Notes under the pieces: generated by a model
What the model was told of the DNA's origin: nothing
The model's database searches: none
Seen by the model: only the letters and a program-made list of their open reading frames with translations
Made by a program: the position numbers and the translations under genes
Assembly: GCA_036365455.1 (NCBI GenBank)
Contig: JAWQUS010000017.1
Location: 7,254,001 to 7,318,000 of the forward strand
Direction of reading: 5' to 3'
Origin: Macrosoma leucophasiata
Lineage: Eukaryota; Arthropoda; Insecta; Lepidoptera; Hedylidae
DNA length: 64,000 nt
In this document: positions 22,055 to 51,892 of the stretch, in pieces
Layout of the letters: every line of letters begins with the position of its first letter
Position numbering within the stretch: position 1 is the stretch's first letter

Positions 22055-22093
22055 ATGGATATCACGATTACAAGACATTTCAGTTTAGACGAA
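22055..22093 (+). CDS. gprs: gprs exon 1 (inferred 13-codon N-terminal exon)
   Basis: ATG in a good context (AAAC before, G after) opens 13 codons (MDITITRHFSLDE), ending GACGAA|GTGAGT, a strong donor. Joining in phase 0 to 22985 reads SSMRSGALAAM without a stop. Not confirmed by transcripts. If wrong, the start is within exon 2. Confidence 0.6.
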
Positions 22094-25000
22094 GTGAGTT
22101 TTTTAATTATGTGTGTTGGGTGGAATTTTATTTCATTCAATGAAAAGAAAAGTATTTTGTAACTATCATACTAGGAAAAAAAGCGAAGATAGTGATTTTT
22201 TGAGAATATTAAATTATATTTGAATTTAAATTTTAAAATAAAACATTCACTGTGTCATTACAAAAAATATGACGATGACGATTTCGAAATTTCAAAAAGT
22301 CTAACATTTTTAAAATATTATTTATTGAACTCCAAAAACATATCCTGGTATTTGAAACATTTTTAACACTCCGGAATAAAACGTTTAAAATTGAAGTTTA
22401 GTTAGTATGAAGTGTATCTATTGACCAAGACCGACCATTTGTATGCCGGTGAATCAAAAATATTTTAATTGCCAAAGAATGTTTCTAAGGTTCCCTAGAT
22501 AATATTTAAAAGCTAATTTACCTTGATTTTTTTTTTTCAATTTTTGTGTACCCTTTCATAAAGAAATTGTCATGATTCTTTGACTTGATAATAATATAAT
22601 GATATTATACCAATAAAGAAATAATAACTAAGCAATAGTAACGAGAATATAAAAATAATAATAATGTTATAAAACGTAAATAACAAAATCAAACAAAGAA
22701 ATAAATTATCAGCCATTGTCAAAAGTATAAAATAATTCAAATAAATCATGCGTGCGACAGGAGAACCAAATTGCATGATCAAGTTACAAGATTACCGTAC
22801 TAGTACCGCTATAAGAATAATTTATGACAGTGATAACTACATTCCAAAACTGATACAGGATCATCAATTTTTCATTGGCATTTACGATATCATATTTAAG
22901 GCCATTGCGGTCAACATAATCTGAAATTGTGACTGAAATATCTTGACAATACGATCAAATTTTCTAATTGGCATCAAATTTCAGTCGTCAATGCGCAGTG
23001 GGGCGTTAGCGGCAATGGAGGCGGAGCCAGACCTCAGCACTTTTGAGAATAAATCCGGACTGGCTGAGGACATGAAGTTCCTCGCTTCGATGCCGGAGCT
23101 GTGTGACGTCACTTTCCTCGTGGGAGACACCAGGGAACCTGTGTGTGCGGTCAAAGCTGTGCTGGCTGCTCGAAGCAGGTAATTGACGATTTTTTTTTAA
23201 GTAATTGTCTAGTGGTAGGTTGCCACTACTACAACGTTGGGGTCCTGGGTTCGATTGCCGGTTCTGGAACTATGAGACGTACACCGCTGAACCAACGGGG
23301 TCATCATAACGGTGTAAAAATCTTTTTTAACTGGTTCTATCGGGATTTCTTCATTTTCTGGAAGTTTCCCAGTACTGCGGAGTTTGGTGATGTGCGCGGA
23401 GATGTCAACAGACTCGCCATCTGTACATGAGTAACAGATGAAAAAAACAAAAAACAAAAATTAAGGCTTTCATGTTTCAATATTTGATACAAATTATAAG
23501 AGTCCTTATAACCTGAAACCAACTGCTTTAAAATTTTAAATTAATTCTCTTAATAAATAAAAGCTTAGAAACACCTTTTGGAAACTAGGTGTTCATTTGA
23601 TAAAATTTCAAAAATCGCCCAGTACTTAAAACCTGGATTAATTTAAACAAGTCTGTGCCCTTGAAAAACATTGAATTCTCGAATGCCAACTAATAATTAA
23701 GTCGAGATTATTTCTATTAGGACAAGCATTCAAATTATTTTATATCTAAATGCCTTAGTTTAGCTCATAATTACTTCACCGTGATATTCACAAACGAAGA
23801 ACATAATTTCTGTTGGGTTGGAAAAAACCCAACAGAAGTGATCTTCTTTTTAAAGAATGCCTCTTTGAACTAATTTAAATCTTTGAAATATTCAAACTGA
23901 AAAGCGCTTTAAAATAAATGTAGAAATCTTTATACTTTTTTTTAGCGTAATGGTGCACCCACACTACAATTCTTTAACTTTTGTGGACTAAAACTGTACA
24001 ACATGGTATTATATCTTGTTATTATTTGGAAGATGTTTCCGCATATGGCCAACAACATAAATTAACCACACTGCTGCACGCTGCTACCATAAAGCAATGC
24101 AATAGATGTGAACGAAAGATTTGACAAATCGGGCAGGGCTTCAGTAGCTCAATTGGAAGATCGGCTGGACTAGATTCCCAGTAGGTCGCGAGTTCGAGCC
24201 TCGCCTGAAGTCAAATTTTTCTTTCCATTTTTCTTTAAAAATAAAACATAAATTAGCAAAGATAATAAAAACAATTCATAAACAGTAATTTTTTGCAACG
24301 CACATGTTTACATGTTTTCAAAGTTGGTAAACTTTATCAATTGTTACCACGTGATGACTATTTTGAAATACTTTCACTGGTGGTAGAGCTCCAGTGACGG
24401 AACTCGCGGGCGTAGGCTCCACCGCATTACCTAATAAACTTGCCGCTAAATGGTAGTGTTCAGCACTATCGTGTTCCGGTCAGGTGGTAATGTACGGCCC
24501 TGTAATTTCCGGTACAGAGGCATAACACCTTCAGCCTCAGAAGTGGTAGCGCATCTGCATTTTGACCTTGGTCTTTGTGTGGGTGTCTATAGGCTGCAGT
24601 CATCACTTAAGATCAATGTGAACTGCATGCTAGTTTGCCACTTCCATTACATAAAAAAAAAACTTGGAAAAGTTCTACAAAAGGGAAATTTGGTGGGGAT
24701 GCTCCATAATGTACCTAGTAAATATCAAAAATAGGAATAAAATGAAATGCCGTTTTCACAGAGTATTCCAGAAAATGCTTTATCAAGCGCCTAGCCCGCA
24801 AAGAAAGAAAGAACCAGCGCCGAGAGAAAATAAACTGAGATTATTTCTCAAGAGATCTTCAGAACCACTTCTCAACCTCCAGAATGCCGCACAGCAGGTA
24901 AATCTATTTTGAAACTGTACCAATTAATCAATACAAAGATTGTGTATACATTTGGCTAAACATCAGCCGTCTATGTATTGATAGTTAAGAGATTATTTGT

Positions 25001-28000
25001 CCGTGAAATTCATTTGTTTTCATAATAGTAACAGATGAACGCGTTAATGAAACTAGGGGCATATTGGCTTGACATTAATATAGTTTCATTAGGCCTTTCT
25101 GATTCAGTAATAGATATATTGAATCATTCTTTTTTAACAGCAAAATATAAATTATGTCTGATTACCGCGATATTCGGCCAAAATAGCACTGTACATTAAC
25201 AACTTAATTCCTTCAAATGAACAATGAAGATCCTATACTTTGAAACATGATTACAGGATCTATAGCTTTGTCCGTGTACGTCACGACTTTCCAATATCCA
25301 CCGGGAATTGTAACATCCTTACTTTATTTTTCTTTACTAACTCCAGCAGTCTTTAGGAGAATACTTTCCTTTCTAAAGCGCAATGCTTTGTTTCTTGGCG
25401 CTTAATTAGATTATTTCGCAGCGTATAAACGTATCTTTAGTAGATTACAGAGACATAGATAACAAAAGTCGCGATATACCGATAAATAATATTTACTTGT
25501 TCACTACAGAGGTCGACATTCGCGCAGCAATTGGCACCAATACAAGAGGTAAAAATCAAAATTGACGATGTTGTAGGTGAACTCGTTACGTCGGTTGGAA
25601 TATTCGGTGTTACTTTTATGCAATTTTTTGAAACTTTTTCCACACTTAGTACTTACGTAGAACATTTTGGATAACGTAAAGCAAATTACAGTTTATTTTG
25701 TACAGGTTTTGTATTTAAAATAATAATCTGCATGAACTAAGTATTTTCTTCAACATTTTTCAGATGCTACACTCAATTTTAATAATTTCATTAATTGTTG
25801 TTATTTAACTAATATTTTTACTTGACAAAACTTTTGTAAATATGTTTAATTCATATAAATACACTAAAGCATGCAATTTAACCATTGTGCTTTTTTATAA
25901 TTTCGGCACATTAATATCAACATTAATTTTATCTTCTACTGTTTTTGCAGCTTTGTTAATTGCTCCTACTTTTTTATTCATATTTTTATAAGTAATATTT
26001 ACAAGATAAAACATTTCAAATAATTACATTATTGACGTGTAATCTATCTAAATATTTTCTTCGACATTTAGCTGTTTATTTAAATTAAGCATGATATATA
26101 ATTGATTAAATTGTATCATAAAAATATAATTACTTAAAATCAAATGCCTTAATTTTAAATGCAGACATTGTTTAAATGCAATTCATTTGAAAGGATAAAC
26201 ATCTTTCAGTTTTAATGTGTATCATAACAATATTTAATACTTCTTATTATAATCAGCAACTTATATTCGATTTAGTCTATTTCAATGACTGCAAACGTAA
26301 ACATACCTGGTAATACTCATTTACGTATTGCAATTTATTTTGTGGCAGCCATCTTCACAACAGCACCAGACCTTGATTATCGAAGAATTTGAACCCGACG
26401 TATTCCGCCAGTTGATCGAGTATATCCACACTGGCTGCGTCACACTTCAGCCTCGTACGTTGCTCGGTAAGTCAGACATTTTGTGACTTATGAAACATAT
26501 TTTTGGTCGTGCCATTTTTCAATTCTAGTGTCATCGCAAAACAGTTAATAATAATGACGACTGTTATTAATATGTAATTTATACCTATGTTATGAAATAT
26601 TTTCATTTCGCTTATAAAGTCATATAAAAGCCTCGAAAGCTAAGGGGTGGTAAGCCATTAATTTTAAGCTCAAGGTCCCGAGAAAAATCTCCGGATTTCC
26701 GGGTCGGGGATGAAGTGATATTGATTTTGAACTTTTTTCTCAATTAAATAGATTCTCAATGGAATATCGGCTCTAGTAAATGTGACTCAAAACAAAAGTG
26801 GTGCACGAATGCAATAGATATTATTATTGTTGTAAACTTCGTAGCGCATATTAATACAATATGTCTTCCAGGTCGATGAACATCAGACGAGCGAATGCTC
26901 ATTCTATCCCCACTATATCAAATTCTTTTAGTGTAAACAGGCGTAGAGTATTATTTCGTTGTTCTTAGTGTATTCGCAAAGATTCTATGGATTGTTATTG
27001 GTGGTAGAGCTCCAGTGAGCTTGCTCGCGTAGGCACCACCGTGTTACTTAATATACTTGCCGCTAAATGGTAGTGTTTAGCACTGTCGTGTTCCGGTCAG
27101 GTGTTAATGTACGGCTCTGTAATTTCACCTTAGGCCTCAGTAGTGGTAACACTAATGTTTATAGGCTGCAGTCATCATCTCACATCAATGTGAACTGTAT
27201 GCATGTTTACCACTTCCATTACATAAAAAAAAATATTCTATTTTACTCGCTCAATGTAAACGGCGCTAAAGCGCGCGAACCGTCGCTTAGAGCGTTTTCT
27301 TGCGTGTTCGGACGTGCTCGCGCCCCTGAGCGGTCTCTTCAAAGCGTTCTTGTTCGAGCGAGTGTATACATATCTTATCGATTAAATTATGGATTGGTCT
27401 CAAGAAAAACGTTAATTAATGATAGAAGCCAACCAAAATTGAACACAAAGAGCCCAACACGAATGAGCAAAGAATATTCGTTCAGATGATCTAGCTTTCG
27501 TTTACACTAAAAGATCACGAAAGAATGCTCTTGTTCTAGCTCTAGCTCTGCATTCGTTTGATATAAATCGACCTTTGAATGTATGCAAATAAAAGCATGT
27601 AATAATAATAAAATGTAAGCATGAGCCTATTGACTTCTCCGGGCACATCATTTACTCAAACACTGTAAATGGCACTGGGAAACATCTGAATATTGGAAAG
27701 TCCCAATAGCACTTACCTTTCCATTCCGGGATCGAACTCAGGACCTAGCATCATAGTAGCAGCCTGCTACTATTAGGACTATTGAGGCAGTTATATGAAT
27801 GCTTATTAGCAGGTTGTTCACAGCCCTCTAAAATACTCGAAGAAGGCAATGGCTTGCTTGCAAAGGCAATGACATGCGTCATACTCGTGAACGGGTGCGG
27901 ATTGTGGTTACTATTCTATTCTAGTTTTTGCTAATTTTACTTTCCATTGTTAATCCGCCTGTATACATACACGAAACTACACAGTAATGTGTTGATAGAT

Positions 28001-37000: not shown

Positions 37001-40000
37001 AACTGTACTGTAGTCTTTAAATATCCACATAAATACCAGAAACACCAGGAGTGGCAACGCATTGAATAATAAAATCGATGATTTTAAGTTTTGCTCATCG
37101 TTTTTCATCACCTACGGTTTTCACGAGTTTAGGTGGCGTCTTACTGTTATGTATTTACTTTATTTAATTGATTATGTGAAATTCGATGTCTTTTGTAGCA
37201 TCTGTTTTTGCAATTCTTTATTAATTTATTATTCGTATTCTTTTCGTTCGTTCTGTTGTAGTTTTTAACATGGATTTTTCAATTTCAACCTCTTAATTTC
37301 AAACCTCTGATAGTTTCGATCAGTAAAAACTATGCATATCGATATATATTTCTTCAAACTACTGTCAGATAAATGTCACCTTAGTCTGCCCGGGATGATG
37401 GACATTGAAGAGCGACCAAAACTCCGGGTCGATTAATAAAATAATTTCGTATTTTTAAATCCATGTTATAAACTACTACAGATGAACCTCTGATAGTTTA
37501 TCATAAATTAAGATTAAAAAAATATATGGAGGATACATATCGATGGAGCTAGCTACATATATTTTTTTCGAACTGCTGTTTGACAAATGTCACCTTAATC
37601 CGAAACGTCAAGTTTTTTTTTTATTTTGGCATCGCTTGTTATGCATATAGCCAGTGTCAAGTAAAAAGATATTTCGTATTCGTAAAAAGCAACGTAGAAG
37701 TCAGCGTCAGTCAGCCAATTTATCAGTCCGTCTGTCAGAGTTACAGTAATTCGAGTAAAGCGATGGCTACTTTACCAGAAAATTTACAATGAAGTTTTGA
37801 AGGCAACCCGAAAGATCGTGTTTTCGCACTGTTATTCTATTTCACTATACACAAGCACTGTAATAAGCCTATATCAAACAAAATGCCACCAACTTTATCT
37901 AATATAACTCAAAAATACACCAAGAAAATTAAATTAAATAAGAGCACCATACGCCTCTTTCAAGGTTCCCGCCAAAACCCCCGAAACGTCAAGTTGATTT
38001 TAAAAATAATTAAACACGAGATAAATCCTTAAAAATACTTTTATTTCAATGAGTGCAGCTTGTAAAAACATTAGAACACATCACGTTAAAATCTAGTTAG
38101 TTAATAATATTAAAAATGTAATTCTCTTTGAATGTACGAAACATAGACTAACATTTAACGTCCTTCCACTAACAATGTTAGCTTGCATAGGCGGAAGCGG
38201 TAACAAATATTAGGTACATGTAACTTCATTAGCCAGCCAGCTTGGAAGGCTGTGTACTAGGCCCATGTTTTCAGTGGCAACAAATATAGTTGCAGCTTTA
38301 GTATCAACTTCAACGTTATTAGAATAAGAGACATGTTACATGGAATATATTTACGTTTCATGATATTTTAGGCATGTCTAGTGAACAAAAAATCCATGCA
38401 CGTAATGTGTGGTGGATCTGATTTGATCCTCGGGGTCAGCACAAAGTATTATCAGTAAATAACATAGCAATCCCAAATTTTCTTGCTTATTCTTTAATCG
38501 TCAATTCAAAATTCATTTAATCACTCGGTAATAATATTTTTTCACGTGACAGGTCCAATTACAAATTGAAAATTCATTAAAAAAATAACTGATTGGTTGA
38601 TTAATAGGTCAAAGTAAACCTTAAAAATAAAATTAATACCTAATGGTCGAAAAATACTTAATAATTAAAATAACAGACAGTGTCATCAACAGAATGTTCC
38701 ATACTTTCTTTTACAAACGGCAAAATAAGACTAAACGAACAGAATATGACACATTCTTTGTCATTCACTGGCAGAGAATTTTTGAAAACCTCTGATGATT
38801 GATGAAGAAAAATCATGGTTTCACATAGTAATTGCAGAATTTTACATTTATTTCTAGCTCACACGTATATAAATTTTATACTTATCTGATTATTCGTGTG
38901 TTCCTTTCAGTTCTGTTCATTTTGACACCTGAAATCTCAACGCTAATTAGGTTTCAGTGGCAAATCATTAATTAACATCAATTAGTGATACCATATTATA
39001 TAATACATTGGGTTATCTATCGCTAAGTAGTTGTATCCTAGCGTATTCAGGAATGCAAACTAAACATAATAATATATCTTTACCTTTGTTTGCATACCTA
39101 AGCGAATTCCAGTAGAATGCTAGTATTCATCTTTGTAATCACAAGCACAAACATATAGGTCCCATGCCACAATATTAGCTACTCAATTACACTGAGAACT
39201 TGTTTTTGGTGAAAATGTCTATAGGATGCTTTATTTAGCCACCTACAATGCTAACTGAATACTTGTTTCTTTCTTTCATGATATAAACATTGAATGAATC
39301 ACTACTTCAATAAATCACATCGTTACTCTTATTCATATAAAAACCTACCCCTTCTGTATAACGAACTCGGGTAGCGAGTCTGAGAGTGCATATTTTAAGT
39401 AGGCCCCTATTCTCCCATATTTACTTATCACTTATATTTCTTGATTGGGTTGGGTAGGTTTACTGGTGGTAGAGCTCCAGTTATGGAGCTCGCGGGCGTA
39501 GGCACCACCGCATTACCTAATATACTTGCCGCTAAATGGTAGTGTTCAGTACTATCGTGTTCCGGTCAGGTGGTAATGTACGGCCCTGTAATTTCCGGCA
39601 CAGAGGCATAACACCTCAAGCCTCAGGAGTGGCAACGCATCTGCATTTTGACCTCTGCTCTTTGTGTAAGTGCCTATAGGCTGCAGTCATCACTTAACAT
39701 CAGTGTGAACTGCATGCTTGTTTGCCACTTCCATAACATGTATCATGAAATACTCGTATATTATGCCATCAAAAACATTACTTGTAAAAAATCCTTCAGT
39801 CTCTGCTTAAGATCGGTATTAAGTTGTTACATTAATACTTAGGTGAGACAAAGCATCTTATTTTTTTTTAATAAATTTATAAAGTGTGTACTATTTATTT
39901 TTCGCAATAACACATGTGAACTTAGATATTAAATAAAAAACGGAAAGAAACATTTTATTTCGGACAGGAATCGAACCTACGACCTCAGGATAACCAGTCC

Positions 40001-43000
40001 AGCCGCTTTACCACTAAGCTACCGAAGTACCACTCTTTGACTTTTTTAAAATCTTTTATGTTTTAAATAAAAACTAGACTTGAGCGATCAGAGCCTCATA
40101 TTAATTTATAGAGAGAAAATGGCTTTCGTTACTAAATTTTTTTACGAATAAAATAATCATAGCAATGCGAGTCTTGTTCCATTAAAATTACATTTTATTT
40201 TTCTTTCTTTTCAAAAACGAACAGTTTAATAACAAACGAGTTATTTAAGCATAGAATTGAGTCTTATTGTAGTAAAATAGCGTTTATTTTCTTTATTTTT
40301 AATTATATTAAATGTACATATGTACTGGTACACTGATTTATTACAAAATTATTTATGCTGTGTCTAAAAAACCGGCTCGAAATTACAAAATGCATTAGTT
40401 TTTCCTTGATTTATACACTTAACACTAATTGAGTTCTAAATTTAAATCTTCTATGTCTGCTAGTGATATTGCAGTCAGTTGAGTGAGAGAGTGATAACAT
40501 TTTACTGGTGGTAGAGCTCCAGTGAAAGAGCGCGAGGGCGTAGGCACCACCGCATTACCTAATATACTTGCCGCTAAATGGTAGTGTTCAGCACTATCGT
40601 GTTCCGGTCAGGTGGTAATGTACGGCTCTGTAATTTCCGGCACAGAGGCATAACACCTAATGCCTCAGGAGTGGCAGCGCATCTGCATTTTGACGTCTGG
40701 TCATTATGTGGGTGTCTATAGGCTGCAGTCATCACTTAACATCAATGTGAACTGCATGCTTGTTTGCCATATTTATTACATTAAAAAAAAAAAAAAAATT
40801 ATGAAACGTTGACTAGTTATAATTCTTACTGATTCAAATTGAATGAAATTAAAAATATACTGTGCATATAAAATGCCTGCTTGGTTTCTGCTCGATTTGG
40901 CGGGCCACTGCCGTACCCCCAGATACTCTCTTCCGTATATTAACGATGGAATAAGTACAGGATTACGAAGAGTGAATCAGATCCGCTCTCTTAGTCAATG
41001 GCATATTGGTTGAGTTATTATTATGAAGTCTTATCAAAAGCTTTATTCATATTATTTACGCTTTTGCTCCTATTTGAACTTGAGTTATAGCAACGCTCGT
41101 ATGAGAAGCACACATATAAGATAAATGTTTTTTCGTCTTGGTCCAACACTACATTGTTTTTTAGTTTTTTAATATTAGATACCTTCAGGTGGAAGATTTC
41201 CAGTGTGGGGAGGGACTCGAGAACGTTGGCATCATCGCATTACCTAACTTAATCGTAGTGTTCAGCACTATCGTGTTCCGGTTAGATGGTAATGTATGGT
41301 CCCCGTCATAACTATCATAGCGACTTAACCACCAAGGTCTCAGGGGTGGCAACGAATCTGCATTTAGACCTCTAGTTTTTGAGTAGATGTCTATAGGCTG
41401 CAGTCATATTAGCATACATATTGCTGCAGGTTATTTACCATCTACGTTATATAAAAAAAAAGTATTATAATCGTCCTTAACTACTTTGTCTACTATCAAA
41501 TCGAACATTTGTTCCAATTCATATTAAATGTGCACACGTTTAAGCATCAATTCTGCATTATTACCTACGCATCTTCGACGAACGACACGAACTTCTGGCC
41601 AAATACTCAAACGTTACTAAAATCTAAGTGGGACTTAAAAGTTTTCTGTCTTTGTAAAACCCGTTCAAAAGATAGAAATAGCGCACATTTGAGGGTTGCT
41701 TAAAATTGAGTGACGTTTGACTATTCGGCCATCAGTTTCGTTTTTGAACGACTTAAAAATTTAAATGATAAATTTTCTGGATGGTCGTTTTTAATTACTT
41801 TAATGTAGCGGCGGAAAATAATTTTCAATTGATGCAATTATTTTGCACATCCAATACTTTAATCGGTTTGTTGTGAACCATGAAATATATTTTGCTGAAG
41901 ATACTATTCATGAAAGAAATTATGAATTTAGTTCGGTTCAATAATCAGTCGTAAGCTTTTGCTTACTGAAATAAAACTATTTTTAGGATCTATCTCGCGC
42001 ATATTAAAAAAAATATGTCGGGGCAGCCAAATGCGTAATGGCAGCCGTGATTTTTCAGTCTTTATACATATTACCGTGAAGTGGACAATATTTTATTTAA
42101 AAAACCAAGTTAAAAAAAAAACTTTTCAAAAAAAAAATTAAATAAATATTTGCGGTCATTTTTGAATAGGCAACCTAGTGGATATAATATATTCTCAAGA
42201 AATATGCGTTAAAATTTGATTTGCAGCATATCTGGATGAATGAAATTATTCTGAAGTGGGATTCTAACCTTATATTCTTAGTAATGTTCAGACTAGGTAC
42301 GTAGAAAACCCGTATTATTAGGTTGGGGAAAAAGTCACTTCGCATTTTTTAAGATAATTCAAAACATTTTTTAATGTAGTTTATTTAAATTTAACTAAAG
42401 TATGTATGTACCATTTTGTTCGATAACCTTTTTCCATCTTGTAGGTAGGGACATGATCCCATTGCTATAAAAATTTTGGGACTTCTCATCAAAATACCGC
42501 GACAAGTGGATTTGGCAGTCCTCTCGTGATGTTAACCTAACATTGCATAAAAAATTCTGAAGAGACCGAAATAGGTGGAAATCTGAAGGTGCAAGGTCAG
42601 GACTATACGGCGGATGCATTAACACCTCCCAGCCAAACTCTCTTAATTTTTGCTGAGTGGCTATAGATGTGTGAGGTCTAGCGTTATCATGATGAAACAC
42701 CACACCCCTTCTGTTGATCAATTCCGGCCGCTTTCTCTCAACTTCTTGCTTTAATCTCATCAGTTGTTCGCAGTACAGTTCAGAATCGATAGTCCTGCCT
42801 GGTGGTAATAGCTCATAATGAATAATGCCCTTCCAATCCCACCACACACACACACAACATCACCTTATTGCGAGTTAACCCGGGTTTCGCCACTGTCTGT
42901 GAAGCCTGACCGGCCTTTGACCACGACCTTTTTCGCACGTTCTTGTCGTACGTGATCCACTTTTCATCACCAGTTATCAGCTACTTCAAAAATGATTCGG

Positions 43001-46000: not shown

Positions 46001-49000
46001 GTAAATTTTGATGGTAGGTATTCACTTACCACCATTGTGATGCTTGTGTCGAGTTTCCTGACACAAAATAAGCATTAGCGATCTAGTTCAGGTTAAATAA
46101 TCCTATGTGCCCTGGTATGTTTTCGCTTGTCGTAGTATTGTATTTATACATACTGAACATAAGTTTATAGAATGTGAACTAAACTAGGACACTAGTGTAC
46201 ATCTCGTACTATGTAGCGAATATCTCAGTATTGTTACTTACTGTCCAAACTTTGACCATGTAGACACATAACTTTAATGAGTATAGTAAAGGAAGAAGGA
46301 AACTACAATCTAATTACTTATTTATGTCTTTGGTAGGCTTCTGATCGAGTAATGAAAACTTAGGCTAGTTTGTATTATATAACTTCCGTAATTACAGTGT
46401 TGAGGTATATAATAATAATAATGGCAACCCATTTTACTGGTGGTAGAGCTCCAGTGACGGAGCTCGCGGGCGTAGGCACCACCGCATTACCTGATTTACT
46501 TGCCGCTAAATGGTAGTGTTCAGCACTATCGTGTTCCGGTCAGGTGGTAATGTACGGCCCTGTAATTTCCGGCACAGAGGGATAACACCTTAGGCCTCAG
46601 GAGTGGTAACGCATTTGCATTTTGACCTTGGTCTTTGTGTGGGTGTCTATAGGCTGCAGTCATCACTTAACATCAATGTGAACTGCATGCTTGTTTGCCA
46701 CTTCAATTACATAAAAAAAAAAAAAAATATACGTCCCACTGCTGGGCACGAGTCTCTCCCCTTTTTGGAGGGAGGCCTGGAGCTTACTCCACCACGCTGC
46801 TCCAATGCGGATTGGTGGAGGTGGGTGGGTTAGTGGCCAACCCGCTGTCGGATGTTTTCAAACCACCCATAAGGCCTCCGACAAGGTTTAACGACTGCTA
46901 TCTATCGATAGCAACCGGGACCGACGGCTTAACGTGCCCTCCGAAGCACGGAAACGCGCATTTAATTTGCCACTAGCGGTCACCCATCACACTACCCGAC
47001 CGCGCCCGTAGTGCTTAACCGAGCAGATCGCTTACGATCTACACCAGCCGCTGGGCCATGCGCGCTTCGTTAAGGTATAGGTTAAACAAAAATATTGTTG
47101 CACCATTTGAAAATGATTACATGACGTCATAACTTTAGCAATAACTGAATCCGTCCAAGCGCTAGATAAAGATTGTCTGCCAGATATGTATTTATCTTAA
47201 TACTCAATAGGTACTCATTGGACATAATTTATTACATTCCATAATGTACCTACATTTCTGACTTAGGGCGGCCACACAAAAAAGCTCGCAGATATTTGTA
47301 TGCGATGCGAATTCGCAATTTTGTGTGGGATGAGCCCTAAGGTGGTAGTGAGTCTTATATGTATCAATTATAGACCCTATAGTAAGTATTAAGATATATA
47401 GATCTATTTACGTATTTTATCTGTTTCTTACAATTCTAAGAAAGGTTTATTATATTGCACATGATCTTGCAACCCTGTAATGCGTTTTGCAGTCGCTGAT
47501 AAAGATTCATTGTAAATTTCGCAAGAAATTATTTTTATCATTACTGGCATGCAACCGAATGGGGATTTTAACATTGATTTTGGGCCCAAAATATTGCAAA
47601 AGATAAATCCTATAGTTATACATGCTCATAAACGGCATGCTTATTAGCATGCTTGAAACAAGTATGCTAATGCGCGAAGAAGTAAGCGTGCTTATTATTA
47701 GCATTGTCTCGACACACATAGTAGTATTTTTTAAATCCGGGTAGAATGTCCGGGACCACGAAAGCTGAAAAGCGACCGAAACTTTGGATTGATTATTAAA
47801 ATAAATTTAGTTTAATATACGCCAGATAAATCCGTAAAAATAGTTTTATTTCAATCTTATACAACCTAGTTATCCTACCATTCCAGGTGTGATGAATGCA
47901 GCAGACTACTACGGGCTGGACGAGTTAAGGCGCGCATGCGCGGGCTTTGTTCAATGCTGCATCACTGTGGATACTGTTTGCGCTTTGCTGGCTTCTGCTG
48001 AACGATACATCCAGTACAAGTGCACCAAGTCATTGGTGCAGAAGGTATGTCCAGTATTTCACCTATCAAAATCAGTACTATAGACTTTTGAATAAAAGTA
48101 CTGATAATACTGATTAAATAATGACTGTCCATCACTATGGTGTTTCGGTTGGATGGTATTGTATGGACGTTTACCTTTTTTTTTATCATAACATGAATGT
48201 TATGCATATTGCCTGTGTCGAGTAAAACGATATTTCGTATTCTTATGCAGCGTAAAAGTCAGAATTCGTCAGTAAATTATCAGTCAGTCAGTCAAAGTCT
48301 GTCAGAGTAACAGTCAGTAATTTGAGTAAAGCGATGGCTAACCAGATGATTTACAATGAAGTTTTGGAGGCAACGTTTTGAAAAACCTTGTTTTAGCACT
48401 GTTATTCTATTTCACTATACACGGGCACTGTAATAAACCTATATCAAAATAAATGGCACTAACTTTAGTATAACTCTAAAATGCACCAAGAAAATGAAAT
48501 AAAATAAGAGCACCATACGCTTCGTTCAAGTTACGCCAAAAACTCTTGTATGAACCTATATTAATTAAATATTATTTATCATAGAGGCATAACAACTAAG
48601 ATCTCAGGGAAGGCAACGTTTCTGCATTTTAACCTCAGGTTTTTGTAAAGATGTTTATAAGCTGCAGTCAACACGTAACATCCATGTGCTGTATGCATTT
48701 TTGCCACATTCGTTACATGAAAAACCTTGCTCTAACTGTGTTCAAGGCAGTAGAAAACTCACAGAAACTTCAGAAAAGTGCAGAAATTTGTCGGGATTTA
48801 CGTGATAAATTTGGACATATTTACTTTAAAATGTTTGTCGACAAGACGTAACGAGGATTAAACATATATGGCTATTTTTGTTTTTCCAGGTTTTAGAATT
48901 TGTTGACGAGCATGGGAATGATGTTTTGAACTTGGGTTCATTCACTCTACTTCCTCAGCATGTGGTCCGGCTGATACTTGCTCGGGATGAACTACGTGCT

Positions 49001-51043
49001 GACGAATTCACCAAATTCCAGGTATGCTTTAAAGCAAGCGTAGTGTTCACGGTAACCAATTTCGTCATAGCAGCAACTTGCAGATACAAAAATAATTTTG
49101 AAAAAACTACTATAACTAGATTTACATCATATAAAAAACATGCTTTTCTGAAAATTAATCCTTTAGTTCTTCTGCCAGTATGATTCTCTATATATCTACA
49201 CTAATGAGTCTTCGGGTTGCTCAGACGAATGGCACTTAGTTAACCGAAGCCGTCACAATAACGGCAGCCGTCAACGCGTCGACGGCACGCCAAAGACAGC
49301 TGTTAACAAAATGCCACACGTCAACGAGTTGACGGCAGCGTCGATTCGCCGACAGTAACGGCGAGACTCGTCGACAGCACGCCAAAGGTAGCTGTCAACA
49401 AAATGCCACACGTCAACGCGTCGACGGCAGCGTTGATTCGCCGACAGTAAGGGCGAGATTCACAGACCGCACTGCAACTTCACTTTGACTCAGGGTGAGA
49501 TTCACAGACCGCACTACGACGCTACTTTCAGAAAATAAAGCTCATAAAATAAACATTGTAAGATCGACTCGAAATTATAGTAAAGTCGTAGTACGGTACG
49601 TGCATCTCATATCAAAATGACAACGACGTCGATAGGCTAGCAGCTGCCTGCCTTGGCCTCCTCGTGCGTCGCACAATTTTTTTTTATTGGCGCTGACGTA
49701 CTTTTGATTGATCAATATAATATATTAAAAGTACTTTTTTAGGGTTAGGAGCCAGTAGATTTTGTATTCTCATAAGTCAAATTTATCTAAAATGTTACTA
49801 ACGAAATTTTAATATTCATCTGATATAATAATAATGACCGAAATATTTGGCCCTCTACACTCTCTACCTGCCCTATATTCCTTATAGGGTAGACAGAGTG
49901 TGGAGCTCCAGGCTTGGCGTGACATTCGTATAATAATATATAAATTTTCATAACCAATAAGGAATATTCATTTTTTTTTCGTCTTAAGTTAATCATTTAC
50001 TTATATATATCGTAGAGAAATTATAAATAGGCCAGAAAATATTATAGTTATTTTTCAAAGTAAAATTTAAAACATTGAGTAAATTTGAGCTCTTCAAACG
50101 CCGTCATTTTGACGACGTGTGTTGTGACGTCACAACACACGTCGAGCGTTTTTTACTCTAAACTTTTGTGTTACTTCATACGTATTTTCAATTTTAATTG
50201 CTCTACAAATCATGGAAGAAGCAAAAATAGTATTAGAAAAACACCAGATAAAGTGTTATTTCGTCTCGACCAATGGCTGCGCGTTTTGGAAGTTTGAATT
50301 TCGTTCCCTTAGTTTGCACTATTTGCATAATATTTAATGGCATTCAATAATTAGTTAATAAAAAAAAACTTTGTAATTATTATATGACGTTGATAAGTAT
50401 TCGAGAAAAAAATATTTGAGACAATTTTAAATTTTATGCATATTCCCTATTGTTTTTTTCAGGCAGCACTGATGTGGAGCAAGAAGTACTGTGATACGAA
50501 CCCAAACATATCATTGAAGGATGTGATTGGCAACTTTCTGGAGTACATTCAGTTTCACAAGATTCCAGCCAATGTGCTGATGAGAGAAGTTCATCCATTA
50601 GGCCTAGTGCCGTATTCCATCATCATGAATGCTCTTGCGTATCAGGTACGACTTCGTTTCATAATTTATAATAAGTGACACTTACAATAAATAATTGTTT
50701 AGTAGGTAAAGTAAACGAGTTTTATTCATGCTTCATAAGTTTGCTCAGGCTTGCAAATATTAGTAACTAGTTTTATTTAATCATATTAAATAGAACATTT
50801 TCGGGCAAGAATATTAGCCATTAGATGACTTAAAATTAAGGTTCACTAAGTGCAGTGCTGAAAACACTAATGTTGCAGGCAGACCCGGCCAGCGTAGATC
50901 CAGGCAAGCTGTCCCCGGCACGAGTGCGGCGAGCCGGCCGCTCTATGTCCGTACAATCTTCTCTCGACCCCTACGGCTCCAATACCACACTTTCTTCGAC
51001 CGGCTCGAGCGATGTTCCGTCTTCGGACTCTCGGCACAACTAA
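22055..51043 (+). CDS. gprs: Serine-enriched protein (BTB-BACK), spliced, 8 coding exons
   Basis: Exons: 22055-22093, 22985-23178, 24762-24897, 26349-26466, 47887-48044, 48890-49021, 50463-50645, 50879-51043. All introns are GT-AG and phases agree at every junction, giving 374 residues. The BTB/POZ fold starts near residue 40 (LCDVTFLVGD at 52-61, VLAARSRVFQKML at 72-84). An inserted basic linker, partly its own exon, follows (about 85-128). The BTB then resumes (FEPDVFRQLIEYIHTG). BACK follows (AADYYGLDELRRAC from 167, LLASAERYIQYKC, VVRLILARDELRADEF, ALMWSKKYC, IPANVLMREVHPL). The tail is serine-rich (SMSVQSSLDPYGSNTTL). I recognise the sequence as insect Serine-enriched protein, Drosophila gprs. 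BTB-BACK proteins often act as CUL3 adaptors, but a Kelch-type partner domain is absent and the role here is unknown. The TAA at 51041 may be read through (see 51041-51892). Exon 1 is inferred; starts at 22991 or 23015 are alternatives. Confidence 0.9.
22094..22984 (+). other. gprs intron 1
   Basis: 891 bp, from GTGAGT to AAATTTCAG, AT-rich. A 70-codon minus-strand open frame in it has no domain and is treated as chance. Confidence 0.6.
22985..23178 (+). CDS. gprs: gprs exon 2: start of BTB domain
   Basis: The acceptor is AAATTTCAG and the donor is AGCAG|GTAATT. It encodes residues 14-77 and two bases of R78: SSMRSGALAAMEAE, then DMKFLASMPELCDVTFLVGD and AVKAVLAARS. This is the classic BTB strand and the first helix region. 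Confidence 0.93.
23205..23431 (+). repeat. Family B SINE, 3'-truncated, in intron 2
   Basis: TCTAGTGGTAGGTTGCC (box A), GGGTTCGATTGCCGG (box B), then GGTTCTATCGGGATTTCTTC, TTCTGGAAGTTTCCCAG and GAGATGTCAACAGACTCGCC. The copy stops before the usual tail. It starts only about 27 bases after the exon 2 donor. Confidence 0.8.
23810..23839. repeat. Short hairpin in intron 2
   Basis: TTCTGTTGGGTT and AACCCAACAGAA are exact complements around a 6-base loop. Confidence 0.8.
24137..24212 (+). repeat. tRNA-like sequence (family C head), probably a pseudo-tRNA
   Basis: 76 nt with a 7-bp acceptor stem (GGCTTCA/TGAAGTC, one G-T pair), a perfect box A (TAGCTCAATTGG), and a perfect T stem (GCGAG/CTCGC) around TTCGAGC. 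The D stem has a mismatch and the anticodon loop is 9 bases (ACTAGATTC), so it is unlikely to be a functional tRNA. It is followed by CAAATTTTTCTTTCC, the body sequence also seen after other family C heads. Confidence 0.7.
24376..24662 (+). repeat. Family A retroposon, full length, in intron 2
   Basis: ACTGGTGGTAGAGCTCCAG through to CCATTACATAAAAAAAAAA. It ends only about 100 bases before the exon 3 acceptor. The 94-codon open frame inside recurs in other A copies and is not a gene. Confidence 0.9.
24762..24897 (+). CDS. gprs: gprs exon 3: BTB helix plus basic linker
   Basis: The acceptor is CGTTTTCACAG. It contributes the last base of R78 and residues 79-123 (VFQKMLYQAPSPQRKKEPAP, then KLRLFLKRSSEPLLNLQ, NAAQQ). 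The donor is CAG|GTAAAT. The KRKKEP/FLKRSS stretch is a basic insertion inside the BTB fold. From memory, it is close to identical in the Drosophila protein. Confidence 0.93.
24898..26348 (+). other. gprs intron 3
   Basis: 1451 bp of AT-rich sequence from GTAAAT to ATTTTGTGGCAG. No repeat shared elsewhere and no coding frame was recognised. Confidence 0.6.
26349..26466 (+). CDS. gprs: gprs exon 4: second half of BTB
   Basis: Phase 0 entry. It encodes residues 124-162 plus one base of G163: PSSQQHQTLIIEEFEPDVF, RQLIEYIHTGCVTLQPRTLL. The donor is CTCG|GTAAGT. FRQLIEYIHTG is the conserved BTB helix before the BACK domain. Confidence 0.93.
26880..27560. repeat. Possible diverged inverted repeat around a family A copy
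   Basis: GCGAATGCTCATTCTAT ... CTTTTAGTGTAAACAGGCG (26892-26944) resembles the complement of CGTTTACACTAAAAGATCAC ... GAATGCTCTTG (27498-27533). The interior includes a GC-rich CpG-dense stretch (27245-27370) and a nested family A copy. The pairing is imperfect. Confidence 0.4.
26996..27233 (+). repeat. Family A retroposon with internal deletions
   Basis: GGTGGTAGAGCTCCAGTGAG to CCATTACATAAAAAAAAA. It lacks the CACAGAGGCATAAC block and the GCATCTGCATTTTGACC block. Confidence 0.85.
27630..27793 (-). repeat. Family B SINE, diverged and truncated
   Basis: The complement reads AACTGCCTCAATAGTCC, GGTCCTGAGTTCGATCCCGG, then TGGGACTTTCC and ATGTGCCCGGAGAAGTCAA. Box A and box B order are kept. Confidence 0.7.
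28084..28232. repeat. Snapback copy of family C tRNA-like SINE
   Basis: The left arm 28121-28153 (TCGGGCAGGAATCGATCC, TGCGACCTCCGGATA) is the complement of the right arm 28175-28207 (TATCCTGAGGTCGCAG, ATTCGATTCCGACCCGA). The flanks AAATTTTAACT and GTCAAAATTTTC extend the inverted symmetry into the SINE body. Confidence 0.82.
29156..29325 (+). mobile_element. Short LINE (family G) tail insertion
   Basis: The insert at 29167-29314 reads AATCGGCGTGCGTGTATG, AAGAGAATGATGAAGGTAG, GCACGGGAGGTGTGTCAGG, CTCCACACTATCGGCC and GGCGTGAAGATACATAC. ATTTATTTTGT occurs on both sides (29156-29166 and 29315-29325), consistent with a target-site duplication. Confidence 0.78.
29472..29523. repeat. Hairpin at start of tandem duplication
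   Basis: ATCTTGTTTTTGAAAG and CTTTTCAAAAACAAGAT pair around GTAGGTACTAATGTG. Confidence 0.75.
29488..29761. repeat. Tandem duplication, two 137-bp units
   Basis: GTAGGTACTAATGTGC recurs exactly 137 bases later (29491 and 29628). The two units, through CATGACACCATTATTTTC, are almost identical (ATCCTATGCC against ATCCTCTGCC). Recent by appearance. Confidence 0.93.
30281..30407 (-). repeat. Family A fragment, 5' half
   Basis: The complement reads ACTGGTGGTAGAGCTCTAGT, CGGGCGTATGCACCACCGC, TGTTCAGCACTATCATG. It stops near CCGTAATAAC, next to a TTTC-rich run. Confidence 0.75.
30578..30812. repeat. Dispersed repeat, copy 1
   Basis: AAAAATTCATTTATTCACTT, GTTGATTAATATGTCAAAG, TCAACAGAATGTTCCATAC and TTTCTTTTGTAAACTGC align with 38500-38745 throughout. 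It looks like a LINE 3' untranslated tail, but no coding part is present. Confidence 0.7.
30981..32267 (-). mobile_element. mariner element, 1287 bp
   Basis: The left end TTAGGTTGGGGAAAAAGT and the complement of the right end (AATAGGTTGGGGAAAAAGT) are terminal inverted repeats next to TA on both sides (30979-30980 and 32268-32269), as mariner integrates at TA. The length fits a full-size mariner. The transposase inside is broken. It lies in gprs intron 4, antisense to the gene. Confidence 0.93.
31058..32086 (-). pseudogene. mariner transposase, broken
   Basis: Starts with ATG at 32086 (MSESNEEIQYI), hits a TAA at 32051-32053, then continues in frame through VYGPSAMSVRVAQIWFKRF, a helix-turn-helix region, WVPHEL, and TGDEKWITYD with the first catalytic Asp. 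A frameshift near 31520 lies in a GTGTG/CACAC run that is longer in the second copy. The next frame holds HHDNAR (second Asp) and YSPDLAPSD. There are 34 residues between the two, so it is a D,D34D transposase. The C-terminus LPTRWQKVIEQNGTYIL ends at 31058. At least one stop and one frameshift make it inactive. Confidence 0.92.
32310..32545. other. GC-rich segment of unknown nature
   Basis: GGGGCTGCCTTCGCCGCAC, GCCGGGTGCTCGCCACTGC and CGGCCACCAGGCAGAGAGGC form a CpG-rich block between the mariner and a family D SINE. It could be an LTR or promoter fragment of a retroelement, but no paired copy is seen in the window. Confidence 0.3.
32587..32810 (+). repeat. Family D tRNA-headed SINE
   Basis: CCCGGTTAGTCCAGCGGTG (box A), GCGGGTTCGATCCTCGC (box B), then the body TTCGGGTCTGGGTGTTTGTG, ACAACGGCACCCATGAC and GGGGCTGTGAGTGTAAGCG. 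It aligns along its whole length with 57830-58045. Confidence 0.88.
33630..33846. repeat. Family F-like (RTE) tail fragment
   Basis: CTAGCGGAGCGGCCCGCCC, GCGGTTGCAATATTACC, CAAATCGGACCAGTAGTTCC and TTCAGCTTTATAATATGTATA. Confidence 0.6.
33930..34087. repeat. Family F-like (RTE) tail fragment
   Basis: CCGTGACTTCGTCCGCGCC, TTTCATGATGATTGGTC and ATTAGTAGGGATTA, in the same order as other RTE-type tails. Confidence 0.65.
34531..34610 (-). repeat. Family A remnant with large internal deletion
   Basis: A T run, ATGTCGTGAAAGTGGC, AAACAAGCATGCAGTTATT jumps directly to AGGTAATGCGGTGGTGCC, so nearly the whole middle is missing. Confidence 0.75.
34632..34720. repeat. Unpaired arm of the 10895-11048 inverted repeat
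   Basis: GAAGTTTGGGAGTGTTGTAT, ACGCGAGAAAATCCGC and TCTACAATATATGAAGCTCGCG. The preceding GTAGCTGGAAAGTGACCGAAA is also shared with the next copy. Confidence 0.8.
34958..35076. repeat. Unpaired arm of the 10895-11048 inverted repeat
   Basis: GTAGCTGGAAAGCGACCGAAA, TTTGGGAGTGTTGTATACGC, GAGAAAATCCGCAAGTTTAA and GAAGCTCGCGAAAACC. Confidence 0.82.
35134..35419 (-). repeat. Family A retroposon, full length
   Basis: T run, ATGTTATGGAAGTGGC to CTCTACCACCAGT, with all internal blocks present. Confidence 0.88.
35961..36275 (+). repeat. Family B SINE, full length
   Basis: CTGCCTCAGTAGCCTAGTGG (box A), GGGTTCGATGCCCGGG (box B), TATCAGAGATAACGG, TTCTATTGGGGTTTTCC, TTCTGGAAGTTTCC, CGCCACCTGTTACATGG, AATCGTGGGTGTTTGCATG and CTTCGGGGATTACAAGC to GAAGTTACG. 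One of the best copies in the window. Confidence 0.9.
36937..37063 (+). repeat. Family A fragment, diverged
   Basis: TTGTGGTAGAGCTGCAGTGA, ACTTGCCGTTAAACTG and ACACCAGGAGTGGCAACGC, with the middle mostly deleted. Confidence 0.7.
37606..37980. repeat. Unclassified dispersed repeat, copy 1 (about 370 bp)
   Basis: Aligns along its length with 48176-48545: CGTATTCGTAAAAAGCAACG, GAGTAAAGCGATGGCTAC, TTTACAATGAAGTTTTG, CTGTTATTCTATTTCACTAT and AATAAGAGCACCATACGC. A run of GTCAGTCAG/GTCTGTCAG words lies near its 5' side. No poly(A), tRNA head or coding frame. Confidence 0.7.
38500..38745. repeat. Dispersed repeat, copy 2 of 30578-30812
   Basis: AAAATTCATTTAATCACTCG, GGTTGATTAATAGGTCAAAG, CAACAGAATGTTCCATAC and GGCAAAATAAGACTAAACG. 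Confidence 0.7.
39462..39740 (+). repeat. Family A retroposon, full length, no poly(A)
   Basis: ACTGGTGGTAGAGCTCCAGT to CCACTTCCATAACATG. It joins unique sequence without the usual A run. Confidence 0.88.
39957..40028 (-). repeat. Family C tRNA-like SINE head
   Basis: The complement reads ACTTCGGTAGCTTAGTGG (box A), GGCTGGACTGGTTATCC and GGTTCGATTCCTGTCCG (box B). The 7-base ends pair with one mismatch. It is followed on that strand by AAATGTTTCTTTCCG, the family C body. Confidence 0.72.
40504..40798 (+). repeat. Family A retroposon, full length with A16 tail
   Basis: ACTGGTGGTAGAGCTCCAG to TTTATTACATT and a long A run. Confidence 0.9.
41186..41461 (+). repeat. Family A retroposon, diverged
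   Basis: CAGGTGGAAGATTTCCAGTG, AGCACTATCGTGTTCCGGTT, GGTCTCAGGGGTGGCAACG and TCTATAGGCTGCAGTCAT to TATATAAAAAAAAA. Substantially older than the neighbouring copies. Confidence 0.8.
42318..43266 (-). mobile_element. mariner element, second copy, internally deleted
   Basis: The left end TTAGGTTGGGGAAAAAGTC sits next to TA (42316-42317). At 43206 the sequence jumps from AAAAATGGC to AGAGATTTTATTAC, skipping about 335 bp present in the first copy (roughly 31870-32205). That removes the N-terminal transposase region. The right terminal repeat is also damaged (GACTTTTTCCC then TATTA). Confidence 0.9.
42395..43200 (-). pseudogene. mariner transposase fragment
   Basis: The C-terminal 150 residues are open (WWDWKGIIHYELLPPGRTID, HHDNARPHTSIATQ, YSPDLAPSDFHLF, LPTRWKKVIEQNG). 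Upstream (42854-43200) the rest of the catalytic half is recognisable but out of frame, after a CACACACACA expansion at 42842-42854. The DNA-binding N-terminus is deleted. Confidence 0.9.
43317..43620 (+). repeat. Family B SINE, nearly full length
   Basis: ATAGTGGTAGTAGGCC, CCTGGGCTCGACTCCCAGG (box B), TTCTATTGGGATTTTTCC, CGCCACCTGTAACATAGG, ACCGGCGAATCGTGAGTG and GGCGTGAAGTCACGG. Box A is damaged. Confidence 0.85.
43968..44265 (-). repeat. Family A retroposon, full length
   Basis: T run, CCGTAGTGGCAAACAAGC to GCTCTACCACCAGT. It carries a small CAGCAG insertion before GATCAAAAAGC and an extra GCT in the head. Confidence 0.86.
44330..44745. other. Unclassified segment with LINE-like end
   Basis: Contains a 67-codon minus-strand open frame (44467-44670), cysteine-rich at its end, without a recognised domain. 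The right end CCCCCTTATGGGGAGGC, TTTGGTCCAACTGGAC resembles lepidopteran LINE endings (GGAGGCCTTTGCCCAGCAGTGGGAC). Possibly a LINE tail. Confidence 0.35.
45346..45492. repeat. MITE-like inverted repeat, about 145 bp
   Basis: TTTCGGGCTTGTAGAGGGTT, ATCTCT near 45346-45375 pairs with AGAGATAACGCTCTACAAAG, TCGAAA near 45462-45490 with a few mismatches. There is no coding frame inside. Confidence 0.6.
45546..45679 (+). repeat. Family A fragment, diverged, broken by a SINE
   Basis: CTTACCGTTAAAATGTAGTT, TTCAGCACTATCTTGATCCG, GATGGTAACGTACGGCCC and GAGCATCGCATCTACAT. It ends exactly where the following family B SINE begins. Confidence 0.6.
45680..45994 (+). repeat. Family B SINE, full length
   Basis: ATAGCCTAGTGGTAGCAGGCC (box A), GGGTTCGATCCCCGTG (box B), TATCAGAGATAAAGG, TTCTATTGGGGTTTTACG, TGTTTGCATGTATGCTTGAA and GGGGATTACAGGTGCG. 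It contains a short insertion (CAAGCATACATAATGTAAA) near 45853. Confidence 0.87.
46411..47079 (-). repeat. Family E 5S-derived SINE, split by a family A insertion
   Basis: On the minus strand the head 47068-46970 carries GGTTAAGCACTACGGGCGCGG and GATGGGTGACCGC, matching 5S rRNA internal promoter elements. The body follows, up to GCAGTGGGACGTAT near 46729. The last ~20 bases of the SINE (AATGGGTTGCCATTATTAT) are displaced to 46411-46434. A complete family A copy (46436-46727) sits between. AGGTATA flanks both outer ends (46403-46409 and 47073-47079). Confidence 0.85.
46436..46727 (+). repeat. Family A retroposon nested in the 5S-derived SINE
   Basis: ACTGGTGGTAGAGCTCCAG to CAATTACAT plus A15, full length. 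The surrounding family E sequence resumes directly after the A run. Confidence 0.92.
47262..47342. repeat. Small MITE-like element, about 80 bp
   Basis: TTAGGGCGGCCACACAAAA at the left and TTTTGTGTGGGATGAGCCCTAA at the right are imperfect complements. The inside includes CGATGCGAATTCGC, itself palindromic. Confidence 0.6.
47887..48044 (+). CDS. gprs: gprs exon 5: start of BACK domain
   Basis: The acceptor is TACCATTCCAG. It completes G163 and encodes 164-215: VMNAADYYGLDELRRACAG, FVQCCITVDTVCALLASAE, RYIQYKCTKSLVQK. The donor is AAG|GTATGT. After a 21-kb intron the phase still matches. Confidence 0.94.
48176..48545. repeat. Unclassified dispersed repeat, copy 2 (about 370 bp)
   Basis: GATATTTCGTATTCTTATGC, GAGTAAAGCGATGGCTAA, TTTACAATGAAGTTTTGG, CTGTTATTCTATTTCACT and AATAAGAGCACCATACGC align with 37606-37980. 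It lies in intron 5. Confidence 0.7.
48581..48725 (+). repeat. Family A 3' fragment, diverged
   Basis: ATAGAGGCATAACAACTAAG, CTCAGGGAAGGCAACG, TTTATAAGCTGCAGTCAAC and GCCACATTCGTTACATG. It directly follows the unclassified repeat. Confidence 0.75.
48890..49021 (+). CDS. gprs: gprs exon 6: BACK domain
   Basis: Polypyrimidine tract and acceptor TGTTTTTCCAG. Residues 216-259: VLEFVDEHGNDVLNLGSF, TLLPQHVVRLILARDELRAD, EFTKFQ. The donor is CAG|GTATGC. The ILARDEL segment is the typical BACK helix pair. Confidence 0.94.
49277..49520. repeat. CpG-rich tandem repeat in intron 6
   Basis: Two 92-bp units (49277-49368, 49369-49460), each with CGTCGACGGCACGCCAAAG-type starts, AACAAAATGCCACACGTCAA and GATTCGCCGACAGTAA. 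A second period of about 43 bp follows (GAGATTCACAGACCGCACT at about 49453 and 49496). The units contain many self-complementary words (CGTCGACG, GTCAACGCGTCGAC). Confidence 0.85.
49851..49906. repeat. Snapback of a LINE-tail motif
   Basis: CTCTACACTCTCTACCTGCC, CTATA pairs with TATAGGGTAGACAGAGTGTGGAG around TTCCT. The right arm continues into CTCCAGGCTTGGCGTGAC, the family G ending. Confidence 0.7.
50113..50144. repeat. Perfect 32-bp palindrome centred on TGACGTCA
   Basis: CGACGTGTGTTGTGAC and GTCACAACACACGTCG are exact complements with no spacer. The centre TGACGTCA equals the consensus cAMP-response element. It lies in intron 6, 319 bases before exon 7. No binding evidence. Confidence 0.9.
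50463..50645 (+). CDS. gprs: gprs exon 7: end of BACK and conserved C-terminal block
   Basis: The acceptor is GTTTTTTTCAG. Residues 260-320: AALMWSKKYCDTNPNISLKD, VIGNFLEYIQFHKIPANVL, MREVHPLGLVPYSIIMNALA, YQ. The donor is CAG|GTACGA. All in phase 0. Confidence 0.94.
50879..51043 (+). CDS. gprs: gprs exon 8 up to the first stop
   Basis: The acceptor is AATGTTGCAG. Residues 321-374: ADPASVDPGKLSPARVRRAG, RSMSVQSSLDPYGSNTTLS, STGSSDVPSSDSRHN, then TAA at 51041-51043. The frame stays open beyond the TAA. Confidence 0.9.
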   Translation, partial: ADPASVDPGKLSPARVRRAGRSMSVQSSLDPYGSNTTLSSTGSSDVPSSDSRHN

Positions 51044-51892
51044 CGCGAGGGGAACATCCCCCATCCCGCGCCTGATCCCGTCCCCGGACCCTCCACTGCA
51101 CCCACCGCTCCTCTTCCTGCCACGGATAAACCACCAGAGAAACTCGGCCTGTTCTCCTCCATTAAACGTGCGGCTAGCAAAAAGTTCGGTGACCGACGTT
51201 CTCCCACGCCCAAGACGAGGGAGCCTCGGTCTAAATCCGACAGTATCAGACATGCAGCGCTTACGAGACAGGTCTCAGAAACGGTGGCAGCGTCAGAAGA
51301 CCCAACTTTCGAGCGCTGTCGGCCGCGGAAGCGCGACAGCGAGACCGAGTTTCCAGTGAGAAAGTCCACATCTGAAATTTCTGAAAGCTTCCCGTTCGTA
51401 AGACGTGCACTAGCCGAAATCGAAAACGGGCTAAATTATTTTAGAAGATCTATAACTTCCGATGCTACTGAGCAAAAAGCGCCGTTAGCGCGGGCTGAAC
51501 CTGTTGTTGTAGTTGCTGCTGCCGAAGACGAAACGCCGGCGTCTTCACCACCCCCTATGGGTTTAAAGGAGCGACGTGGCTCGCGAGGTTCCCCATGTGC
51601 TAATCTTCCACCATTAATGCTACCACCTAGCACACCAGATCCATCTCCGGGTCGTTTATCACCAAATCGTTTATCGCCACTGCGTCCAAAAGAGCCATCT
51701 TCAGCGCCTGTGATCGGTAATCCTCCTCGGCGATCTAGAACACGTTCAGAAATGCCACCAGACCCTCCACCTCGTTCACCGCCTACGCCACGCCCGGCGT
51801 CAGTCTCTCCTAAGCATACTTTTGCTTTTAAGATAGTGCTGAAAAAGGTAGAGAGCACACCAAACACCTCATTCGATAGACCAGACCAATGA
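51041..51892 (+). CDS. gprs: Candidate stop-codon readthrough extension of gprs
   Basis: The frame of exon 8 continues after the TAA for 282 sense codons to TGA at 51890-51892, which would make a 657-residue product. It is proline/serine/arginine-rich, with ordered-looking islands: KLGLFSSIKRAASKKFGDRR just after the junction, FPFVRRALAEIENGLNYFRR in the middle, and KHTFAFKIVLKK near the end. The base after TAA is C, a weak termination context. CGCG-A-GGGG-AACAT-CCCC-CATCC-CGCG (51044-51070) can fold directly downstream, similar in placement to the stem-loop described for Drosophila headcase readthrough. Alternatives are a C-to-T sequence change or allele (CAA to TAA), or an unseen splice form bypassing the stop. 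An AAG|GTAGAG donor-like site near 51848 could also end the exon there. Confidence 0.6.

Follow-up and report, generated by a model that had tools for sequence, protein, structure and literature searches.

We describe in the gene gprs of Macrosoma leucophasiata an in-frame second open reading frame (ORF) behind the stop codon, referred to here as the tail, which is conserved as protein in other Lepidoptera and for which functional stop-codon readthrough is the most likely single explanation. The gene lies on the + strand of a 64,000-nucleotide (nt) stretch of contig JAWQUS010000017.1, and this whole stretch is called the window throughout. Its relatives carry the names serine-enriched protein or gprs, and the encoded protein is a BTB-BACK protein. 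Eight joined exons (Table 1) yield 374 sense codons followed by a TAA, after which 282 further sense codons run in the same frame up to a TGA. Both counts, given in the preliminary description of this DNA, were reproduced from the joined exons, and the observation of an in-frame stop followed by a long open tail is confirmed.

Under readthrough, most ribosomes would halt at the TAA and give the 374-residue BTB-BACK protein, while a fraction would insert an amino acid at the TAA and continue for 282 codons in frame. The resulting long form would comprise about 657 residues, a lengthening of the gprs protein by about 75%, with a Pro/Ser/Arg-rich and probably disordered tail that would end in the very conserved block PASVSPKHTFAFKIVLKKVESTPNTSF.

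Coding character and conservation of the tail

No + strand stretch of the window stays open for longer than that of the tail (one of 298 codons lies on the - strand), and the other two + frames across the same region contain 13 and 18 stops. An opening of 282 codons was reached by none of 5,000 first-order Markov sequences of the tail's own composition (mean 28). Likewise, its codon-position asymmetry of 0.043 was reached by none of 2,000 Markov sequences and by none of 72 segments of the same length elsewhere, and on these openness and asymmetry tests a chance ORF was rejected. The G+C content is 0.54 in the tail versus 0.32 in the 1,308 nt past the TGA. Two antisense ORFs of 131 and 155 residues overlap the tail; the database relatives match the + strand translation (the antisense translations were not searched).

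With the tail alone as query, 26 database proteins were retrieved at an expectation value (E) <= 0.001 and 51-88% identity, the most distant relative being P0026 (51%). Scored within full-length proteins, the tail was found in 13 models, with identity up to 93% in Epargyreus clarus. The named sources are Leptidea, Spodoptera, Eumeta, Plodia, Amyelois, Epargyreus, Iphiclides, two species of Papilio, Pararge, Leptosia, Heliothinae, Danaus, Arctia and Chilo. The protein searches require shared five-residue words and set length ranges, and very long or divergent isoforms, such as a longer one of Drosophila gprs, would escape them.

Identity was calculated in ten-residue blocks over 35 sequences, P0026 being left out, and ranged from 0.53 (residues 141-150) to 1.00 (residues 251-260), with most blocks at 0.8-1.0. 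Residues 251-280 show identities of 0.96-1.00, and the last two residues 0.87. The first block, represented by no more than seven sequences, reaches 0.76; its first two residues are covered by none of them, and conservation sets in at the third codon past the stop (GN.P.PAP), that is, two codons after the TAA. The substitutions are not strikingly conservative, since among 1,034 of them 417 score positive and 440 negative in BLOSUM62. At the amino-acid level, the reading frame past the stop encodes conserved protein, and this in-frame conservation from just past the stop is what is expected of a readthrough gene. Both tail patches singled out as protein-like in the preliminary description are conserved in the relatives. 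Its wider proposal of conservation past the stop holds for amino acids, the level at which the comparison was made.

The stop codon in relatives

All six named lepidopteran models that are devoid of the tail end in ...SSDSRHN (P0027, P0028, P0030, P0032, P0034 and P0133, which stand for clusters of 67, 13, 43, 6, 18 and 7 members, respectively, not inspected singly). Among the fetched tail-less proteins that end at most 115 residues from AYQADP, 71 of 91 end in Asn, the six lepidopteran models included; these termini are a sample, drawn from the 120 matches listed out of 309. A residue in place of the stop was found in none of the 13 models holding both gprs and the tail. Judged from proteins rather than DNA, the first stop is kept in relatives, as in known readthrough genes, which answers the question of whether the stop is conserved: the TAA is apparently common to the relatives and no private error.

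The models that carry both parts bypass the stop via ten different joins (a slash marks the join), and several of them omit residues that are conserved elsewhere. The join AYQ/GN is found in three models (Eumeta, Papilio xuthus and Epargyreus), SPAR/GN in Iphiclides, RSMS/GN in Pararge, and SSD/GN in Papilio machaon. SSD/RAASKKF occurs in two models (Leptosia and Heliothinae), SSD/ASKKF in Danaus, DPYG/KKF in Arctia, and VPS/QVSETV in Chilo, while two Spodoptera exigua models use VPS/RSPT and an intron-derived join. Such a variety may arise because gene predictors would invent introns round a genuine stop with coding signal behind it.

In the pyralid moths Plodia (P0024) and Amyelois (P0025), a separate gene has been annotated for the second half of the tail. 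These two entries, labelled "Proline-rich protein 2-like" and as an uncharacterised protein, consist mostly of this second half and are probably false separate genes.

Table 1. Features of the gprs locus and other elements in the window
Feature	Position	Strand	Remark
gprs coding exon 1 (MDITITRHFSLDE)	22055..22093	+	matches N-terminus of P0027-type proteins
gprs exon 2	22985..23178	+	
gprs exon 3	24762..24897	+	
gprs microexon RSTFAQQLAPIQE	25510-25548		39 nt; in some isoforms of relatives
gprs exon 4	26349..26466	+	
gprs exon 5	47887..48044	+	
gprs exon 6	48890..49021	+	
gprs exon 7, end ...NALAYQ	50463..50645	+	donor also that of AYQ/GN models
gprs tandem acceptor GCAG/GCAG/ACC	50877-50883		4 nt apart
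gprs last exon, coding part including TAA 51041-51043	50879..51043	+	terminus DSRHN
Tail, in-frame second ORF, 282 codons and TGA 51890-51892	51044..51892	+	conserved protein, judged by relatives
Hairpin directly 3' of stop	51044..51070	+	weak support for any role
First AG past stop, candidate alternative acceptor	51048..51049	+	exon start 51050, in phase
Broken mariner/Mos1-like transposase copy	31061-32050	-	Pfam Transposase_1, DDE_3; HTH_48
Broken mariner/Mos1-like transposase copy	42398-42859	-	Pfam Transposase_1, DDE_3
tRNA-Thr (anticodon ggt)	39955-40029	-	ARAGORN and Rfam tRNA match
Open stretch of 298 codons	54598-55491	-	

Alternative splicing and other sources of the tail

Alternative splicing is the strongest competitor and the less likely of the two. 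The donor of exon 7 (after 50645) would sometimes be joined to the first AG past the stop, removing ADPASV...SRHN together with the stop and giving AYQ/GNIPHPAP...; with conservation starting at the third codon after the stop, only through this AG could a splice deliver the whole tail. The main evidence for it is the AYQ/GN join itself, which is present in 3 of the 13 long models, from widely separated Lepidoptera, with one RefSeq isoform weighing most. Three further models also have a tail that begins with GN, there joined to other donors. In the window, this AG stands in phase (TAACGCGAG/GGG), and alternative acceptor use at this exon is indicated by ten models of other insects with AYQT... 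ends that fit a 4-nt shift.

On the other side, the remaining 10 of the 13 long models show other joins, and the use of this AG by the GN models is deduced from their proteins rather than from DNA. The site itself has a G at -3 and pyrimidines at 6 of 14 positions. With a crude matrix from seven gprs acceptors it scores -4.5, below all seven true gprs acceptors (leave-one-out -2.7 to 10.4) and at the 29th percentile of the AGs throughout the window. A poor score is still compatible with use of this AG, since pyrimidines likewise fill 6 of 14 positions at the true acceptor of the last exon, and the scores of two true sites are -2.4 and -2.7. The preliminary description had named splicing round 51041 as one of the outcomes that would contradict it; a matching join does exist in the three models mentioned, and the candidate acceptor in the window scores poorly. 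Splicing from within the last exon is improbable in the window, since the seven GTs that this exon has ahead of the TAA all lack the GTRAG form, although the joins of three models (SPAR/, RSMS/ and SSD/) fit three of these GTs.

A tail translated from its own message or start, whether as a second cistron, by internal initiation or from a separate overlapping gene, and thus unjoined to gprs, is very improbable. The annotation of the second half as a gene in Plodia and Amyelois speaks for it. Against it, the frame of the tail is exactly that of gprs and starts at the gprs stop. Furthermore, the first in-frame ATG in the window lies only at residue 172 of 282, which would leave the conserved LGLFSSIKRAASKKF part untranslated; no downstream ATG of the window could start the conserved tail, and a second cistron was rejected as its main source. 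That a long gene is in truth continuous and is broken here by a sequencing error or a private nonsense allele, for which nothing speaks beyond the bare possibility, was rejected as practically negligible on the shared DSRHN terminus (the same terminal residue in 6 of 6 named tail-less lepidopteran models, and a residue at that position in 0 of 13 long ones). Selenoprotein recoding was also rejected, the codon being TAA and not UGA and the sole Rfam match at gathering score in the window being a tRNA.

Readthrough of the TAA remains the explanation that we favour, and its weight relative to splicing is a matter of judgement. The ORF, its conservation as protein and the shared terminus are what sequence comparison provides; that the tail is delivered by readthrough rather than by splicing we infer, together with how much readthrough occurs, how it is controlled and what, if anything, the tail does. 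Several points weigh against this explanation. In 3 of the 13 long models (Eumeta, Papilio xuthus and Epargyreus), AYQ is joined to GN at an identical position, and the Epargyreus model, RefSeq isoform X4, may be based on RNA reads or on an aligned protein. Among the stops, UAA is as a rule the tightest, the RNA structure of the 100 nt after it is not unusual here, and the acceptor matrix was built on only seven sites. In a Drosophila reporter, too, UAA gave less readthrough than the other stops (PMC13170385). The interpretation offered in the preliminary description is partly supported: the tail is conserved, the stop is shared and readthrough is the best single explanation, while its stem-loop argument has proved weak.

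Several minor features of gprs were observed in the window. The last exon is preceded by a tandem acceptor (Table 1), whose second AG, if used, would give AYQTRPA and then a stop; the models of other insects with AYQT... ends that fit this AG are P0112, P0121, P0122, P0124, P0128, P0130, P0131, P0139, P0143 and P0145. The microexon is present in some isoforms of relatives and lacking in others.

Stop context, hairpin and known readthrough systems

The base after the TAA (+4) is C, as the preliminary description had it, and is counted for readthrough. The stem-loop proposed there can form over the first 27 nt behind the stop (-10.4 kcal/mol; z -1.97, equalled in 7 of 200 shuffles). Longer segments give no such signal: 133 of 200 shuffles equal the fold of the 100 nt that start at the stop (z +0.41), and z is +1.30 for the 100 nt that start at +10. 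With its start at +4, the hairpin lies inside the footprint expected of a ribosome stalled on the stop codon. The hairpin is weak evidence because it is ordinary in its 100-nt context and nearer to the stop than the stem-loop of Drosophila dfr, and it is not counted here as support for readthrough. A stable stem-loop at the set distance of about +9, as in dfr, was not found at gprs.

The stem-loop of dfr spans about +9 to +59, and insertion of 3, 6 or 9 nt before it lowered readthrough; a shift nearer to the stop is not among the constructs described there (PMC13170385). The gprs stop resembles those of Drosophila headcase and drifter/vvl in being closely followed by a potential hairpin, as far as the accounts in PMC13170385 and PMC5100048 go, and differs from dfr in that its 27-nt hairpin starts at +4 and its 100 nt are not unusually structured. 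With the readthrough genes of Drosophila and Anopheles, as presented by Jungreis et al. 2016 (PMC5100048), it shares a conserved first stop, a C next to it and an in-frame second ORF conserved as protein up to the second stop. Unlike those, it is lepidopteran, has a UAA stop and possesses a possible acceptor six bases past the stop. In the same study, candidates with a predicted 3' splice site of maximum-entropy score >=4 were generally dropped if the preceding region was unconserved, and readthrough was abundant in most insects tested, the exceptions being Tribolium and Apis.

Most annotated fly extensions measure 8-300 residues, a range near the top of which the 282-codon tail of gprs falls, and FlyBase holds 328 readthrough genes (File S5), according to PMC4528330. 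The main texts of PMC5100048 and PMC13170385 do not name gprs, and readthrough does not appear in a paper that mentions gprs, Drosophila and CG18471 (PMC1352350). In the open-licence literature, no paper was found that joins stop codon readthrough, gprs and Drosophila, and none for "serine-enriched protein" with Lepidoptera, the name alone leading to a yeast paper. A search there for gprs with Drosophila, serine and BTB led to a paper on co-repressors (seen as a listing).

If readthrough operates here, gprs would be a long and strongly conserved lepidopteran case at UAA, usually the hardest stop to read through. The authors of a 2024 moth genome paper state that they know of no record of how frequent readthrough is in Lepidoptera (PMC10917498). 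Genes of this kind can be hidden by automated annotation, as illustrated by the ten joins in 13 models and by the partial tail genes of two moths. By readthrough or splicing alike, a gprs annotation of normal length omits a conserved isoform.

Properties of the tail and long hymenopteran models

The tail contains 51 Pro, 34 Ser and 31 Arg among its 282 residues. No Pfam family or PDB chain matched it at E up to 1, and AlphaFold2 with 29 sequences gave no confident fold (mean predicted local distance difference test score 54.9, predicted template modelling score 0.15). Scans of viral and prokaryote contigs revealed no relative. BTB-BACK proteins are often adaptors of Cullin-3 ligases, and the long form could gain a binding site from a conserved, disordered tail whose end is fixed.

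Two hymenopteran models, Osmia P0083 (HSGKN-G) and Prorops P0068 (HSALN-Q), run past the position at which their relatives show HSGSN and then a stop. As with gprs in Lepidoptera, a long tail follows the same BTB-BACK protein, and the G or Q at the place of the stop looks like the product of a stop changed into a sense codon. In contrast to the lepidopteran tail, this one is of other sequence and only weakly alike at its end. For the Osmia end, 10 of 5,000 shuffles were as good against P0026 and 44 against P0080; for the Prorops end, the values were 77 and 1,191, respectively, and the best Prorops alignments leave the C-terminal block uncovered. When profiles were compared with the two Hymenoptera, little but the BTB-BACK part was aligned, because long rows dominate the alignment, and the comparison is uninformative on the tails. 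These long models could also stem from splicing. It is also conceivable, though rather doubtful, that the stop is an old holometabolous readthrough stop, the tail predating the split of Hymenoptera and Lepidoptera and having since diverged, with a change from stop to sense codon (G in Osmia, Q in Prorops) producing a permanent long form.

Other features of the window

Beyond gprs, the window contains two broken copies of a mariner/Mos1-like transposase and a tRNA-Thr gene, all on the - strand (Table 1). The open stretch of 298 codons has no Pfam match at E <= 0.001; we take it to resemble the C-terminal part of a retrotransposon reverse transcriptase.

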